From contig NZ_LT607754.1 of NCBI RefSeq assembly GCF_900090285.1, positions 620,001 to 684,000 of the forward strand: 64,000 nucleotides of DNA, given 5' to 3'. A program made the translations under genes and the position numbers. The notes under the pieces were generated by a model. The model had not been told where the DNA came from, did no database searches, and was given only the letters and a program-made list of their open reading frames with translations. The DNA is from Micromonospora inositola. GTDB taxonomy: Bacteria > Actinomycetota > Actinomycetes > Mycobacteriales > Micromonosporaceae. Below, one piece after another: positions 50,775 through 55,762 of this stretch; the stretch's first letter is position 1, and each line of letters starts with the position of its first letter.

Positions 50775-50808
50775 GAATCTCCGCTCTTCAGGGCGGGGAG
50801 AACGTCAA
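50775..50808. mobile_element. Possible IS200/IS605-family right-end remnant
   Basis: The stretch GAATCTCCGC-tcttcagg-GCGGGGAG followed by AACGTCAA resembles the subterminal hairpin and end of IS605-type elements (usual form CCCCGnCCTTCAGGnCGGGG then GATGTCAA). No tnpA or tnpB is left. The telA stop codon lies inside it (50805-50807), and the hairpin sits between two convergent genes where it can also act as terminator. Confidence 0.45.
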
Positions 50809-52115
50809 CGCTGGGCGGGGACGACCGCCGGCGCCTGCTCCAGCACCGCGGCGGGCAGCTGCGGCCCGGCCGGCAGCGCCACCGGCTCCTGCGCCCGGGT
50901 GACCAGCTCCACCACCGTCCGGCTGAGTCGCTCCGAGGACTCCGACATGGACCGGTTGGCGGTGATGATCGCGCCGACCACCTCGGCCCGCTTCTGCTGG
51001 CCGTAGCGGACGGCGTCCTCGATGCCCCGGGCCTGCGCGTCGATGGACTCGGCGACCTCGAGGATGGTCTCCGGCCGGATCGTCGGGGTCTGGATCACCC
51101 GGGCGATCTGCGGCACCGCCGTCTTCGACGCCGTCGCGTACGCGGACAGCACGTCGTTGGCGCCGTCGGCGACCGCCTGCTGCATGTCGGCGGCCTGGTT
51201 GGCCTGCAGCAGCAACGCCCACTGGGCGATGGTCAGCTTCATCGTCGGGATGGTGAGGTTCATCAGCAGCGCCAGCCGCTGGCCGAGGCCGTAGTTGAGG
51301 GTGCGGATGTTGCGCACCTGCGGCGAAGTGGACCAGGCCACGAAGAGCCGCTGCTGGAACTCGTTGATCCGCACCTCCAGCGCCTGCGCGAACTCGGTGA
51401 CCAGGGAGAGCCGTTCCCGCTGATCCCGCTCGTCGGGCGCACCCGGCGTCACGGTGATCGACTTGGCGTCCGCGAGCGCCACGTCGCGGACCAGCTCCAT
51501 CACCGCGATGGCGCCGACGAGCTGGCCGATGGCCGCCTCGTTGGCCTTGTACAGCTCGTCGCAGAGCACCACGTTGCGGCGCAGTTGGAGCTGCTTGTCG
51601 CTGAGCTGCCCGGCAACCCGGTCGAGCTGCTGCTCGACGGTGCGTGCCTCCTCGAAGAGCATCTCCAGCAGGTCGCGGCCCTTGCGGAACAGCCCCCGGA
51701 TGGCGTCGGAGAACTTGGTGAAGGTCTCGCGGACCTTCGGGTCGCTGGGGTCGTACTTGCGGCGGAAGCTGCGCATCCGGTCGTTGATCTCGTGCATGAT
51801 GCCGGTCAGCTCCGGGATGTCGACCCGGCCGACCTCCCGGAAGATCCGGCTGACCTGGGCGTTGACCTGGTCGAGGGCCTGGTTGCCGAAGCTGGCCAGG
51901 GCCTCCGTGTTGGCCAGCATGGTCGGGTAGAGCTGCCGGGAGGCCTGCTCGGCCTGGCCGAGCTGGGCCGGGGTGAGCAGGTCCTTGCAGGCGAACGTCT
52001 GCGGCTCGGCGCCGGTGGCCAGCGCGGTGGTGATGGCGGCGTCGGCGGCGCCAGCGGGCGGGTCGGCCGGGCCGCCGACGATGCTGCCGAAGTCGATCTG
52101 CAGTCCCTCGGTCAT
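50805..52115 (-). CDS. telA: TelA-family toxic anion resistance protein
   Basis: 436 residues, cytoplasmic, almost all helical with long coiled-coil stretches. Family features: the FGNQALDQVNAQVSRIFREV block (~75), FRRKYDPSDPK (~117), LRRNVVLCDELYKANEAAIG (~177), and QWALLLQANQAADMQQAVAD (~285). TelA proteins are associated with tellurite and other toxic-compound resistance and often neighbour XpaC-type genes, as here. Last gene of a four-gene operon, 14 bp after the solute-binding protein gene. ATG 52115 follows AGGGG. The stop codon lies in a possible IS end, so the last few residues may be acquired. Confidence 0.92.
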   Translation of the reverse strand: MTEGLQIDFGSIVGGPADPPAGAADAAITTALATGAEPQTFACKDLLTPAQLGQAEQASRQLYPTMLANTEALASFGNQALDQVNAQVSRIFREVGRVDIPELTGIMHEINDRMRSFRRKYDPSDPKVRETFTKFSDAIRGLFRKGRDLLEMLFEEARTVEQQLDRVAGQLSDKQLQLRRNVVLCDELYKANEAAIGQLVGAIAVMELVRDVALADAKSITVTPGAPDERDQRERLSLVTEFAQALEVRINEFQQRLFVAWSTSPQVRNIRTLNYGLGQRLALLMNLTIPTMKLTIAQWALLLQANQAADMQQAVADGANDVLSAYATASKTAVPQIARVIQTPTIRPETILEVAESIDAQARGIEDAVRYGQQKRAEVVGAIITANRSMSESSERLSRTVVELVTRAQEPVALPAGPQLPAAVLEQAPAVVPAQR

Positions 52116-52129
52116 GACGTGGGTCCCCT

Positions 52130-53272
52130 TCACTTGCAGGTGGTGGCGTCCTTCATGCAGCTGAGCAGCGCGAGCGTGACGTCGGCGGCGGGCGCCGGCG
52201 CGGCCCGGAGCTGGTCGGCCAGCCCGATGCCGGGGAAGTCGGCGACGTCGTTCGCGCCGACCTGCACGGCGGAGCGGAAGCCGTACCGCTGCCAGGCGAT
52301 CTGCTGAATCTTCGGGTCCTTCAGCGCGTCGATGAGCCGGCCGGCGGCCGGGTTCAGGGCGAGCACCGGGTGGTCGCTGTAGATGGTCGGGTCGGGGTAG
52401 AGCACCCGGACGTTCTTCAGCAGCGGCCCGCTGTTGTCGCCGCTCTGCACCACCTGCTGGATGATCTGGTTCTCGTAGCCGGCGTAGAGCGGGGCCTTGA
52501 ACTCGCCGCCCTGGGTGAGCCACTCCCGGAAGCCGGAGTCGGAGCTGCGCGACTGCAGGCCCTGCGCGTCGTGCAGGGCGCGCATGGTGGGCAGCGCCCG
52601 GCGGGCCTGGGCGAGGCTGGGCGCGGAGAAGCCGTCGGCCGTGGCGACGATGTTGAGCTGGAGCTGGGCCATGGTGAAGCCGCTGTTCGACTTCGCCGGG
52701 TCGGTGCTGGCCACGGTGATCGGCCCGCGCAGGTCGTTGGCGCCGATCGCCTCCCAGGTGCCGCGCTTGACGACGTGGTCCAGCAGCAGGGCCTTCATGT
52801 CGACCACGAAGTACCGGTCGCCGCGACGCTGCACGATGCCCTTGCGCAGCAGCGCGTCGGTGCCGCGCGGGCCGGCGTAGACGACCTCGGGCGACTGGAG
52901 CAGGTTCTCCGCCCGGTAGTCGGGGAACGCGCCGGCGTGCTGGGCCTCGAAGACGCCCTGCGCGCTGGCGCTGGACGGCCAGAGGCAGTCCAGCTTCCGC
53001 TTCTTGATCTCGTCGGTGCTCAGCTGCACCTGGTCGTACGAGCCGAGCGGTTGGAAGGCGACCTCCAGCCGGTAGCTGTCCCGCAGGATCCGCTTGACCT
53101 CGGCGTCGGCCATCAGTTCGGACTTCTCGGAGCCGCCGAGGCAGGTGAGGGTCGTCGGCGGGCCGGCGGTGGCCGGGGTGTCCCCGGACCGCTGCCACAG
53201 CACGGCGGCGACCACGCAGACGGCGATCACCGTGACCAGCCCGATCAGGAACCGGATGCTCGGCAATCTCAA
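52130..53272 (-). CDS. Membrane-anchored type-2 solute-binding protein in the telA operon
   Basis: 380 residues. N-terminal membrane anchor (7-26), then a periplasmic-binding fold: TCLGGSEKSELM (GSE at 47-49), a CLWPSSASAQ loop, and DPAKSNSGFTM (SNSG at 195-198), a ligand-loop pattern also present in the vWA lipoprotein three genes upstream. Ligand unknown; the SNSG loop recalls anion- or phosphate-binding family members. The TTG start 53272 is set by AAGGAG 5 nt upstream, 9 bp after the XpaC-like stop. Confidence 0.78.
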   Translation of the reverse strand: MRLPSIRFLIGLVTVIAVCVVAAVLWQRSGDTPATAGPPTTLTCLGGSEKSELMADAEVKRILRDSYRLEVAFQPLGSYDQVQLSTDEIKKRKLDCLWPSSASAQGVFEAQHAGAFPDYRAENLLQSPEVVYAGPRGTDALLRKGIVQRRGDRYFVVDMKALLLDHVVKRGTWEAIGANDLRGPITVASTDPAKSNSGFTMAQLQLNIVATADGFSAPSLAQARRALPTMRALHDAQGLQSRSSDSGFREWLTQGGEFKAPLYAGYENQIIQQVVQSGDNSGPLLKNVRVLYPDPTIYSDHPVLALNPAAGRLIDALKDPKIQQIAWQRYGFRSAVQVGANDVADFPGIGLADQLRAAPAPAADVTLALLSCMKDATTCK

Positions 53273-53281
53273 CGTGACTCC

Positions 53282-53881
53282 TTATCGGCCCAGGTCGGGC
53301 AGGGTCGGTGGGGCAACGGTGTCGAGGTTGGCGGTGTACTGCGCGATGTCGCCCTGGTTGACCAGCCGAACGCTGTCCAGGGCGAAGTCTGCGAAACGCC
53401 GGAACGCCAGCTCACCGTTGCGTTGCAAGGTCTGCGGGTCGTGGTAGAGCACCGGCTGATGCTGGATGTCCAGGTACTGCCGGACCGCGCCGTCGAGGCT
53501 GCGCAGGTGCCCGCCGACCTGGGCGGCAGTGGAGTAGAGGCTGTCGGGCGAGCGGTCCCTGACCCGCTCGAAAAGCTCCGGGACGTACCGGCAGGCGTCC
53601 GCCAGGGCCTGGCGGGCTTCCGGACGGCGGACGTCCCGGCTGAGCCGCTCGATGCCGCGCAGCACCCGCAGCGCCTCGTCGACCCGGTCCCGGGCCTCGT
53701 CGGCGTAGCTGTCGCTGTCCACCCGCGTGGCGGATCGGTCGTCGAGCATCAGGTAGAGCCCGAGCGCGGCGGCGACGGCGAGCAGCGGCGCCCAGAGCAG
53801 GCTGCCGGTGACGGCGAAGACCAGCGCGAACGCGGCGACGGCGGCGGCCAGGGCGAGAGGCGCGGCCAGGCGGCGCCTCAC
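53282..53881 (-). CDS. XpaC-like membrane protein in the telA operon
   Basis: 199 residues. Two closely spaced membrane helices at the N-terminus (about 5-47) and a long helical cytoplasmic part (DEALRVLRGIERLSRDVRRP, ACRYVPELFERVRD, GHLRSLDGAVRQYLDIQHQP). This is the layout of the XpaC/5-bromo-4-chloroindolyl phosphate hydrolysis family, whose genes pair with telA in Firmicutes and others. GTG 53881 overlaps the stop of the vWA gene as GTGA. Confidence 0.78.
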   Translation of the reverse strand: MRRRLAAPLALAAAVAAFALVFAVTGSLLWAPLLAVAAALGLYLMLDDRSATRVDSDSYADEARDRVDEALRVLRGIERLSRDVRRPEARQALADACRYVPELFERVRDRSPDSLYSTAAQVGGHLRSLDGAVRQYLDIQHQPVLYHDPQTLQRNGELAFRRFADFALDSVRLVNQGDIAQYTANLDTVAPPTLPDLGR

Positions 53882-55506
53882 CGGTACCCCGCCGCCTGGC
53901 GCAGCGCCGCCACCAGGTCGTCCTGCCGGACGAAGGTGCCGTGGGTGGCCTCGGCGACCTCCTTGAGCTGCCTGGGGTCGGCGTCGCGGCCGAACGCGAT
54001 GGCGACCACGGGCACGCCGGCGGCGGTGAGCGCGGACAAGGCCTCGCCCCGGCGCCGGCTCTTGGACTGCCCGTCGGTCATCAGCACGACCAGCCGCTTG
54101 CGGTCGTCGGCCTGCGGGCGGGCGAGTTCGTCGGCGGCGCGCAGCAGGCACGCGTACATGTCGGTGCCGCCGTCGGGCCGGTAGCCGGTGACCTTGCCTT
54201 GCAGGCCGCGCAGGGCGGTGGGGTCGTTGCCCTGCACCGTCCACGGGCTGCCGCCGGCGAGGTCGTCGTTGAAGATGCTGACAGTCGTGCTGTCCTTCGG
54301 GTGGGTCTGCAGGAAGTTCAGCGCCGCCTGGTCGGGGTCGAAGATCTGCCCGGCGGCCGCCTGGATGCCGGTCCAGCCGTCGTTGTCGCCCATCGACCCG
54401 CTGCCGTCGAGGCAGTAGTACACGGCGACGGGCCGGCGGTAGCGGGTCTGGTAGCGGTCCAGCGCGGCCTGGATGACCGGCGCGCTGGGGAACTGGATGG
54501 CCTGCTCGTTGATGGTGCCCTTGATGCCCCAGGCCGGGTTGAAGACTGCCGGGTCGGGCTTGTCGAGGGTGAGGCCCACCCCGGCGGCCGGCCGGCGGCC
54601 CAGCTTCAGCAGGGTGGCCTGCGCGCCCGGGTCCTTGAGCAGGTGGTCCTGCAGTTCGGTGAAGATCCGGTGGGCGTCGTCGTTGCCGGCCTGCGGCAGG
54701 AAGCCCAGCGGGGCGTCGCTGACCGCGAGGGACCCCTTGGGGTACGCCACCAGCAGCGGTTCCCGGCCGGCCTTGACCAGCTCGGCGTTCTTCTCGATGA
54801 CCAGGTCCTCGTAGGTGAACATGGCCCGGCACTGATCGGCGTGGGCGAGGCACTCGGTCATCAGGGTGCCGGTGGACGGCGGGGTCTGGTCCATCGCCTT
54901 GACGAACCGGCTGACGCCCTGCTCGACGGCGGGCGAGTCGAGCTGCTGCTGGGTGAGCGGGGTGCCGGGTCCGTTGCCGGCGAAGTAGTTGAGGAAGCCG
55001 AACAGCACGGTGGCGCCGGAGTTGGACTGGGTGGGGTTGGTGATCCACACCTTGGTCCGGCCCGACTCGACGGCCCGCAGGATGTCGGCGATCGGTACGT
55101 CGGAGCGGCCGGCGAAGCCGAGCTTGTCCATCTCGGAGCGCCAGGCGGCGAAGACCACCGGGGTGAGGAACATCGGCTGGACGTCGCGCAGGGCGCTGGC
55201 CCGGTCGCCGAGTTGCAGGAAGACGCTGGAGGCGAACCAGTACGCGTCGTAGTCGGCGCTGCCGGCGGCGAGCAGCCGGGCCTGGTCCACCGACCCCTTC
55301 AACGTCACCTGACAGGTGTAGTGCCGGCTCGCGCACCACGGCTTCACGGTCGTGTCGACGACGCTGGCCTGTTCGCTGCCGGCGACCAGCCGCAGGGTGC
55401 CGGCGCTCGGCCCACTGCTCGGCCGGTCGGCCGGATCCCCGTTCGTGCAGCCGGTGACCAGCACCAGCACCATCACGGCCAGCGCCGTGAACCCCTTGGC
55501 CCGCAC
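53878..55506 (-). CDS. Lipoprotein combining a solute-binding domain with a vWA domain
   Basis: 542 residues. Lipobox LVTGC (C20). Residues 36-350 form a type-2 solute-binding domain with GSE at 43-45 and NPTQSNSGA (SNSG 161-164), sharing motifs with the second binding protein of the operon. Residues 360-540 are a von Willebrand A domain with MIDAS D367-G-S-G-S371 and GGTDMYACL, binding a divalent cation. It heads the operon and is exported to the outer membrane face. GTG 55506 is chosen to give a normal lipoprotein signal; ATG/GTG codons up to 55575 are alternatives. Confidence 0.82.
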   Translation of the reverse strand: MRAKGFTALAVMVLVLVTGCTNGDPADRPSSGPSAGTLRLVAGSEQASVVDTTVKPWCASRHYTCQVTLKGSVDQARLLAAGSADYDAYWFASSVFLQLGDRASALRDVQPMFLTPVVFAAWRSEMDKLGFAGRSDVPIADILRAVESGRTKVWITNPTQSNSGATVLFGFLNYFAGNGPGTPLTQQQLDSPAVEQGVSRFVKAMDQTPPSTGTLMTECLAHADQCRAMFTYEDLVIEKNAELVKAGREPLLVAYPKGSLAVSDAPLGFLPQAGNDDAHRIFTELQDHLLKDPGAQATLLKLGRRPAAGVGLTLDKPDPAVFNPAWGIKGTINEQAIQFPSAPVIQAALDRYQTRYRRPVAVYYCLDGSGSMGDNDGWTGIQAAAGQIFDPDQAALNFLQTHPKDSTTVSIFNDDLAGGSPWTVQGNDPTALRGLQGKVTGYRPDGGTDMYACLLRAADELARPQADDRKRLVVLMTDGQSKSRRRGEALSALTAAGVPVVAIAFGRDADPRQLKEVAEATHGTFVRQDDLVAALRQAAGYR

Positions 55507-55762
55507 CCGTACCCCGTTCCTGTCCGGTCGAAGACCCACATTCGGGTGGATCGAGGTCGTTGGTAGCACCGGCAAACCAACTGGACGGCCAACATTGGGT
55601 GAACTCCGGGTGTCGCGGTCGCTTGTCGCAGATCACCGTCGGGCCAGCGTGAGGAAATCGCCCGGCTGGGTACGTCATTCTGGTGCACGCGCGTCCGGCG
55701 AGGCCGTGGCAGCGCTCCCGGCGCCGGCCCGGGCGCCCTTTGACGATGGGAGAGACAGCCGC

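Follow-up and report, generated by a model that had tools for sequence, protein, structure and literature searches.

A conserved TelA operon with two solute-binding proteins and PHO-box-like promoter repeats: a candidate ligand sensor in Micromonospora inositola

A TelA gene of Micromonospora inositola closes a run of four tightly packed genes on the minus strand, at positions 50805-55506 of the window analysed here, a 64,000-nucleotide stretch of contig NZ_LT607754.1. The locus raises the question of what TelA might share with the two solute-binding proteins (SBPs) encoded ahead of it. In order of transcription, the genes encode a lipoprotein that joins an SBP domain to a vWA domain (vWA-SBP), an XpaC-like protein, an SBP with a transmembrane anchor (SBPtm) and TelA. 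Our favoured answer, to which we give just short of an even chance, is that the operon makes one membrane-spanning, Pho-regulon complex that senses a ligand and relays its state via XpaC to TelA. A reading of the window made earlier from the letters alone (the original prediction) had proposed an anion- or metal-sensing unit signalling through XpaC to TelA; a link to phosphate, given here by conserved PHO boxes, is absent from it.

Gene content, conservation and folds

The four-gene minus-strand run described in the original prediction was verified in its coordinates, the 4-nt GTGA overlap of the vWA-SBP and XpaC-like genes, the gaps of 9 bp from the XpaC-like gene to SBPtm and of 14 bp from SBPtm to TelA, and the TTG start of SBPtm with its AAGGAG. 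By Pfam profile search, TelA reached 103.2 bits against PF05816 (cut-off 30), with residues 68-380 covered, and vWA-SBP matched VWA (PF00092, E 5.7e-11); SBPtm matched no Pfam family. The window's XpaC-like protein scored 28.6 bits against PF10112, slightly below the cut-off of 29.8, and a whole-genome search of M. inositola gave no PF10112 match at E 0.001; in profile-profile comparison the slot reached a probability of 96 to XpaC, the PF10112 score itself being sub-threshold. Its two hydrophobic segments recur in 17 of 18 close relatives, window included, and in other phyla the corresponding proteins of the same gene order scored 32-123 bits against PF10112, with eight of the eight scanned passing. 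None of the four proteins rose above a cut-off in NCBIfam, and SBPtm, the XpaC-like protein and TelA had no direct sequence match to solved structures at E 1. A role in anti-phage defence was dropped because PADLOC gave no match for any of the four. Profile searches of the genome found one copy of TelA and no match for TerD, the identical TerD search being positive in 2 of 14 control genomes.

These genes are found together well beyond the genus, in several phyla, which answers the check on co-occurrence named in the original prediction. Across the class, TelA was matched in 75 of 394 genomes. Among 150 Micromonosporaceae genomes, 25 have a TelA above cut-off, seven of them a classical TelA beside TerD and 18, M. 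inositola included, a divergent one; all 18 of the latter have the identical four genes in identical order. Gene orders were compared in 81 loci, namely the window and 80 others chosen at TelA and SBPtm sites. The window's order (order A: vWA-SBP, XpaC, SBPtm, TelA) is complete in 18, and a second order (order B: SBPtm, classical TelA, vWA-SBP and a protein with two transmembrane segments, c1) was found in 26. Of the remaining loci, 17 combine TelA and c1 with TerD proteins, short or long, six combine the two with PknG and an AAA protein, and 14 have other or partial sets. The c1 protein of order B is only a possible relative of XpaC; filing it as XpaC was rejected, since its profile probabilities were 68 and 15 and none of the c1 proteins scanned matched PF10112.

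When named genomes were scanned, 384 loci gave a match, and in the best 80 of these both SBPs were recognised by score in 77 (74 in order A, three in order B), a count from which L209, L210 and L213, with vWA-SBP not above threshold, were left out. TelA is present at 57 of the best 80, and in the four loci scanned it scored 64-246 bits against PF05816. Order A spans Actinomycetota, Bacillota, Chloroflexota and Thermodesulfobacteriota, and order B occurs in other actinobacterial families, Lentzea and Gallionella. The named loci include Micromonospora, Plantactinospora, Catellatospora, Nocardia, Propionibacteriaceae and Ktedonobacter, as well as Lachnospiraceae, Paracoccaceae, Thermodesulfobacteriota and Verrucomicrobiota.

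Both vWA-SBP and SBPtm were modelled as type-II binding proteins (predicted local distance difference test 91-93), so that a PF13531-like type-II SBP fold is, by these models, common to the two modules, as the original prediction had supposed. The GSE and SNSG loops that it had pointed out are present in both and near-invariant in relatives. In 82 aligned vWA-SBP sequences, G43, E45, S161, N162 and G164 are kept in all, S44 in 79 and S163 in 81; in 90 aligned SBPtm sequences, G47, K50, S195 and S197 are kept in all, E49 and N196 in 89 and G198 in 87, S48 being the exception with just 54. A cation-dependent vWA domain, likewise predicted, agrees with a metal-ion-dependent adhesion site (MIDAS), DxSxS...T...D, that is complete and invariant in all 82 aligned relatives. 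The SBP models lie near sulfate- and molybdate-type binders and equally near ferric, thiamin, polyamine and sugar-phosphate binders; assigning a ligand by fold was given up, as sulfate, thiamin, ferric, sugar-phosphate and polyamine binders fall within a few Z units. The predicted topology is compatible with SBPs outside, an XpaC hairpin in the membrane and TelA in the cytosol. According to the original prediction, a dedicated system would be unlikely if the genes rarely co-occurred outside close relatives or if the modules had unrelated folds; the genes proved to be kept together widely and the folds to be related, and this ground for doubt therefore falls away.

PHO boxes upstream of the cassette

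The region upstream of vWA-SBP contains repeats that resemble PHO boxes (Table 1). Streptomyces PHO boxes are described as 11-nt direct repeats with GTTCACC as their most conserved part (PMC6283541), and the form given for E. coli is CTGTCAT (PMC4415409). An alignment of upstream regions from close relatives revealed GTTCACC-N4-GTTxxCC in the nearest of them and a conserved octamer, TGCTACCA, which occurs in 12 of 16 named Micromonosporaceae loci.

We scored two units in the forward direction (maximum 14) in 42 order-A regions, 27 of them distinct, and 29 order-B regions, 25 of them distinct. A score of at least 12 was reached by 10 of the 27 distinct order-A and 9 of the 25 distinct order-B regions, compared with 2 of 233 other promoters from the same type of loci; random segments reached it in 2 of 1548 cases for order A and 0 of 1428 for order B. 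At a threshold of at least 11, the counts were 18 of 27 and 9 of 25 versus 13 of 233. TelA operons that lack the SBPs behave differently: none of 29 reaches even 11 of 14, which argues that the SBP cassette is regulated in its own way.

Repeats of the TTHACA type are the PHO-box consensus of Bacillota. In Bacillota copies of the cassette, 16 of 27 regions had such repeats with a score of 11 or more out of 12, versus 5 of 131 control promoters; the degenerate TTHACA was scored after the single strings, of which TTTACA did best at this threshold (10 of 27), followed by TTAACA (4 of 27) and TTCACA (3 of 27). Among 13 other loci, a mixed non-Bacillota set, GTTCACC boxes occurred in none, and PhoB-type CTGTCAT repeats reached at least 12 of 14 in two (L195 and L236) and in no random control.

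As a positive control within the M. inositola genome, neighbours were examined for the only perfect two-unit site and for one of five places with a single mismatch. A PhoU_div (PF01865) gene starts about 130 bp away from the perfect site, on the opposite strand; the one-mismatch site lies 116 bp before a PstS-like gene (PF12849), on the same strand. Judged from these sequence patterns, the PHO boxes appear to place the operon in the Pho regulon and to tie it to phosphate limitation.

Table 1. Genes and promoter features of the operon (window coordinates)
Feature	Position	Strand	Description
vWA-SBP lipoprotein	53878..55506	-	GTG start; type-II solute-binding domain ~34-360, C-terminal vWA ~362-531
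XpaC-like protein	53282..53881	-	two hydrophobic segments at the N terminus, followed by a helical, probably cytosolic domain
SBPtm	52130..53272	-	TTG start behind AAGGAG; single N-terminal transmembrane anchor and type-II solute-binding domain
TelA, divergent subgroup	50805..52115	-	ATG start; PF05816, 103 bits
PHO-box-like tandem repeat	55587..55604	-	GTTCACC-N4-GTTGGCC; 98 bp upstream of GTG; 12/14 matches, 1/200 shuffles equal
Weak third repeat unit	55609..55615	-	CGACACC; 11 bp upstream; three-unit score 16/21, 0/200 shuffles equal
Inverted repeat	55559..55581	-	GTTGGT-N11-ACCAAC; contains octamer TGCTACCA (55561-55568); possible -10 region or operator

A candidate sensor and the alternatives

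The computed evidence consists of a gene set that is conserved, the folds of the SBPs, an intact MIDAS and the PHO boxes; from these we infer ligand binding, a relay and an output. Activation of the PhoP type at low phosphate would produce the complex, and SBPtm and the lipoprotein vWA-SBP would bind a small anionic ligand outside the cell, possibly a compound of phosphorus, or else an oxyanion resembling phosphate and of relevance once high-affinity phosphate uptake is on. Closure on the ligand and the metal-dependent vWA domain may bring the two SBPs together, or the vWA domain may join a third partner. The membrane helix of SBPtm and the XpaC hairpin would transmit this state to the cytosolic domain of XpaC, which might recruit or release a TelA scaffold at the inner face of the membrane, with envelope protection or adjustment as the putative output. 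TelA has been proposed to form submembrane structures (PMC7824862). As regards the sensor unit of the original prediction, the conserved set, the SBP folds, the MIDAS and the topology all fit it, and a toxic anion or metal as ligand and the step from XpaC to TelA stay conjectural. A wider version of our proposal, which we consider doubtful, is a multi-phylum class of Pho-regulated transmembrane sensors in which duplicated SBPs, one with a metal-dependent vWA arm, would sense a phosphate mimic or a compound of phosphorus and, via the XpaC hairpin, govern TelA scaffolding at the inner face of the membrane. If true, TelA and XpaC, both widespread families, would gain a defined input, and toxic-anion phenotypes would become one branch of phosphate homeostasis. 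The operon itself supplies handles on these families, in the form of a candidate PhoP/PhoB regulator and two candidate receptors.

Several observations weigh against the sensor proposal. The PHO box of the window has two mismatches, and the genome has 107 sites as good or better (16 for a reversed-pattern control), so that this box stands through its conservation alone. Even with both strands counted, 8 of the 27 order-A regions and 13 of the 25 order-B ones stay below a score of 11; the motif idea was itself taken from order-A upstream alignments, so that the order-A count is not blind, and the Fisher values count related loci as independent. The XpaC hairpin has almost no outside loop, and contact with the SBPs would therefore have to go via a membrane helix. 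Moreover, a search next to the cassette found no TelA at 23 of the best 80 named loci, three of which end no more than 131 bp past SBPtm, which makes the SBP pair with XpaC a more constant core than any set including TelA. At 14 of the 23 TelA-less loci, a gene close to the end of the cassette was scanned. These neighbours vary, comprising SecA, a thiolase, PhoX, a major facilitator superfamily transporter, a metallo-beta-lactamase fold, AAA, a DNA glycosylase, ABC (ATP-binding cassette) ATPases (L199, L202 and L211), another SBP (L195) or no match. The four ABC-type neighbours among the 14 fit uptake equally well; they slightly weaken the sensor proposal, its wider version included, and strengthen its rival, to which we now turn.

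The classical partners of SBPs are ABC importers, and SBPs of this kind are among the members of Pho regulons. The two SBPs might accordingly deliver their ligand to an importer, ABC or other, whose genes lie nearby in some genomes and elsewhere in others, with XpaC and TelA as accessories. ABC ATPases adjoin the TelA-less cassette at L199, L202 and L211, the last on the opposite strand, and another SBP does so at L195. A permease or ATPase is, however, not a constant partner: there is none in the window operon, no permease/ATPase cluster is common to the order-A or order-B actinobacterial loci, and the one neighbour cluster with ABC ATPases occurs at 9 of 59 loci in variable position. Such inconstancy favours sensing over uptake, and the make-up of the pair, one SBP with a vWA domain and the other with a membrane anchor, both tied to XpaC, also speaks against an importer, an explanation that we rate as quite unlikely. 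Unlikely too, though slightly less so, is a guard against phosphate mimics, in which Pho-induced SBPs would capture or monitor toxic oxyanions such as arsenate and tellurite, which may enter more readily when phosphate uptake is raised, and TelA-XpaC would shield the envelope. The name and toxic-anion link of TelA (PF05816), the PHO boxes before the operon and the likeness of the SBP models to sulfate- and molybdate-type binders are consistent with this role. So are the reports that disruption of Listeria telA (lmo1967) raises susceptibility to nisin 4-fold and to tellurite 2-fold (PMC12791056) and that arsenate competes with phosphate in Streptomyces (PMC7866108). The fold, however, matches the ferric, thiamin, polyamine and sugar-phosphate binders equally, and no resistance gene was seen among the conserved neighbour clusters and the scanned neighbours, most neighbours lying outside the scan.

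Less probable still is an envelope-stress module, in which XpaC and TelA would act as xpaC-yaaN of B. subtilis and the SBP-vWA pair would be surface chaperones or metal carriers, not sensors; we regard this as improbable. The xpaC-yaaN and yceC-H operons are listed in the sigma-W regulon (PMC3498285), other TelA operons contain TerD or TerC, and the complete MIDAS would suit a metal carrier. Yet the M. inositola genome is without TerD, and the SBP-free TelA operons, 17 of 29 of which have TerD proteins, show no PHO boxes, in keeping with a cassette under different regulation.

XpaC-TelA pairing and SBP-based signalling are already known. The signalling SBP 6lkg, whose record title names a two-component system protein and which we take to be HptA, has a histidine kinase as its partner, unlike the TelA operon. 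The pairs xpaC-yaaN of B. subtilis and lmo1966-lmo1967 of Listeria have the same PF10112 and PF05816 neighbours; the passages on them in PMC3498285 and PMC12791056 mention no binding proteins and give sigma-W or stress as their control, whereas the XpaC-TelA pair of the window lies inside a dual-SBP cassette with PHO boxes. By analogy, the nearest tested principle for the signalling proposed here would be GlnH-GlnX-PknG, where an SBP has been proposed to signal across the membrane (PMC9769921, PMC6069109). In those accounts GlnH is a family 3 SBP, GlnX has four transmembrane segments and the output is a kinase, whereas the window operon has two PF13531-like SBPs, a vWA domain and a two-transmembrane XpaC, with no kinase and no four-segment GlnX. 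In 6 of the 81 loci, TelA is itself part of an operon that also encodes PknG, a GlnH-type SBP and, at the position of GlnX, a membrane protein (SBP_bac_3 confirmed by scan in L112 and L118, PknG PF16919 in L113 and L117); TelA and c1 precede the GlnH-type SBP and PknG genes, which ties TelA to a PknG signalling operon. The Ter stress-response systems are alike in that TelA and the vWA protein TerF are proposed submembrane components (PMC7824862), but they are recognised by TerD, for which the M. inositola genome gave 0 matches. We found no description of the cassette or of its PHO boxes in open-licence PMC literature, an earlier account (for example Anantharaman, Iyer and Aravind 2012, on Ter systems) not being excluded.

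Ancestry of the cassette and further loci

Trees were built from samples of 80 of 253 SBP rows and 73 of 112 TelA rows. The SBP-domain tree is midpoint-rooted, and the branches that join its two halves drew a long-branch warning from the program. It splits vWA-SBP from SBPtm at 100%, and the subgroups of one half return in the other: Actinomycetota with Ktedonobacter, Bacillota with Chloroflexota, and order B. Since the halves mirror each other, both SBPs look to have come from one old duplication that predates the two gene orders, and they have probably travelled together since. The TelA tree is looser, again with long-branch warnings: order-A TelA lies on the opposite side of a 99% branch from order-B TelA, which groups with the Ter- and PknG-linked TelA. 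When the profiles of actinobacterial order-A TelA and of order-B TelA were compared, the match was weak (probability 6). We make no claim of strict co-inheritance for all four genes.

TelA is patchy within the genus, with a match in 11 of 121 genomes, one of which (G600) has only a 67-residue fragment. This fragment (G600:C9:202812-203012) adjoins the aldo-keto reductase gene that flanks the window operon, and G587 and G643 have the same spacing to that gene as the window; this arrangement looks like loss at a shared site. A second partial copy of TelA is found in another genus-mate (G630:C4:6003520-6003963).

Other loci vary the set. L163 and L166 have SBPtm and vWA-SBP pairs without TelA, with a protein of ~250 residues (c131) in the c1 position. 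Same-strand ABC ATPase genes follow the TelA-less cassettes at L199 (10200-10967) and L202 (6640-7341), and two related long genes lie behind the three-gene TelA-less cassette at L236, the one scanned being alkaline phosphatase PhoX. At L122, L127, L130-L133 and L142, TelA and c1 adjoin long proteins, of which the two scanned (L127 and L130) have an N-terminal TerD domain and a long remainder without Pfam match. The PknG-linked loci L112, L113 and L116-L119, from other actinobacterial families, have TelA and c1 followed by AAA, the GlnX-position membrane protein, the GlnH-type SBP and PknG.

Lastly, the 40-64 kb part of the window was compared by blastn (E 1e-20) with the 20 loci L167-L186. 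The match was confined to the 4.8-kb operon block or a part of it in 17 of them, and L167, L168 and L186 gave additional matches outside the block. At L169 (Micromonospora haikouensis) the vWA-SBP match begins ~200 residues late, and this copy appears to be shortened at the front.

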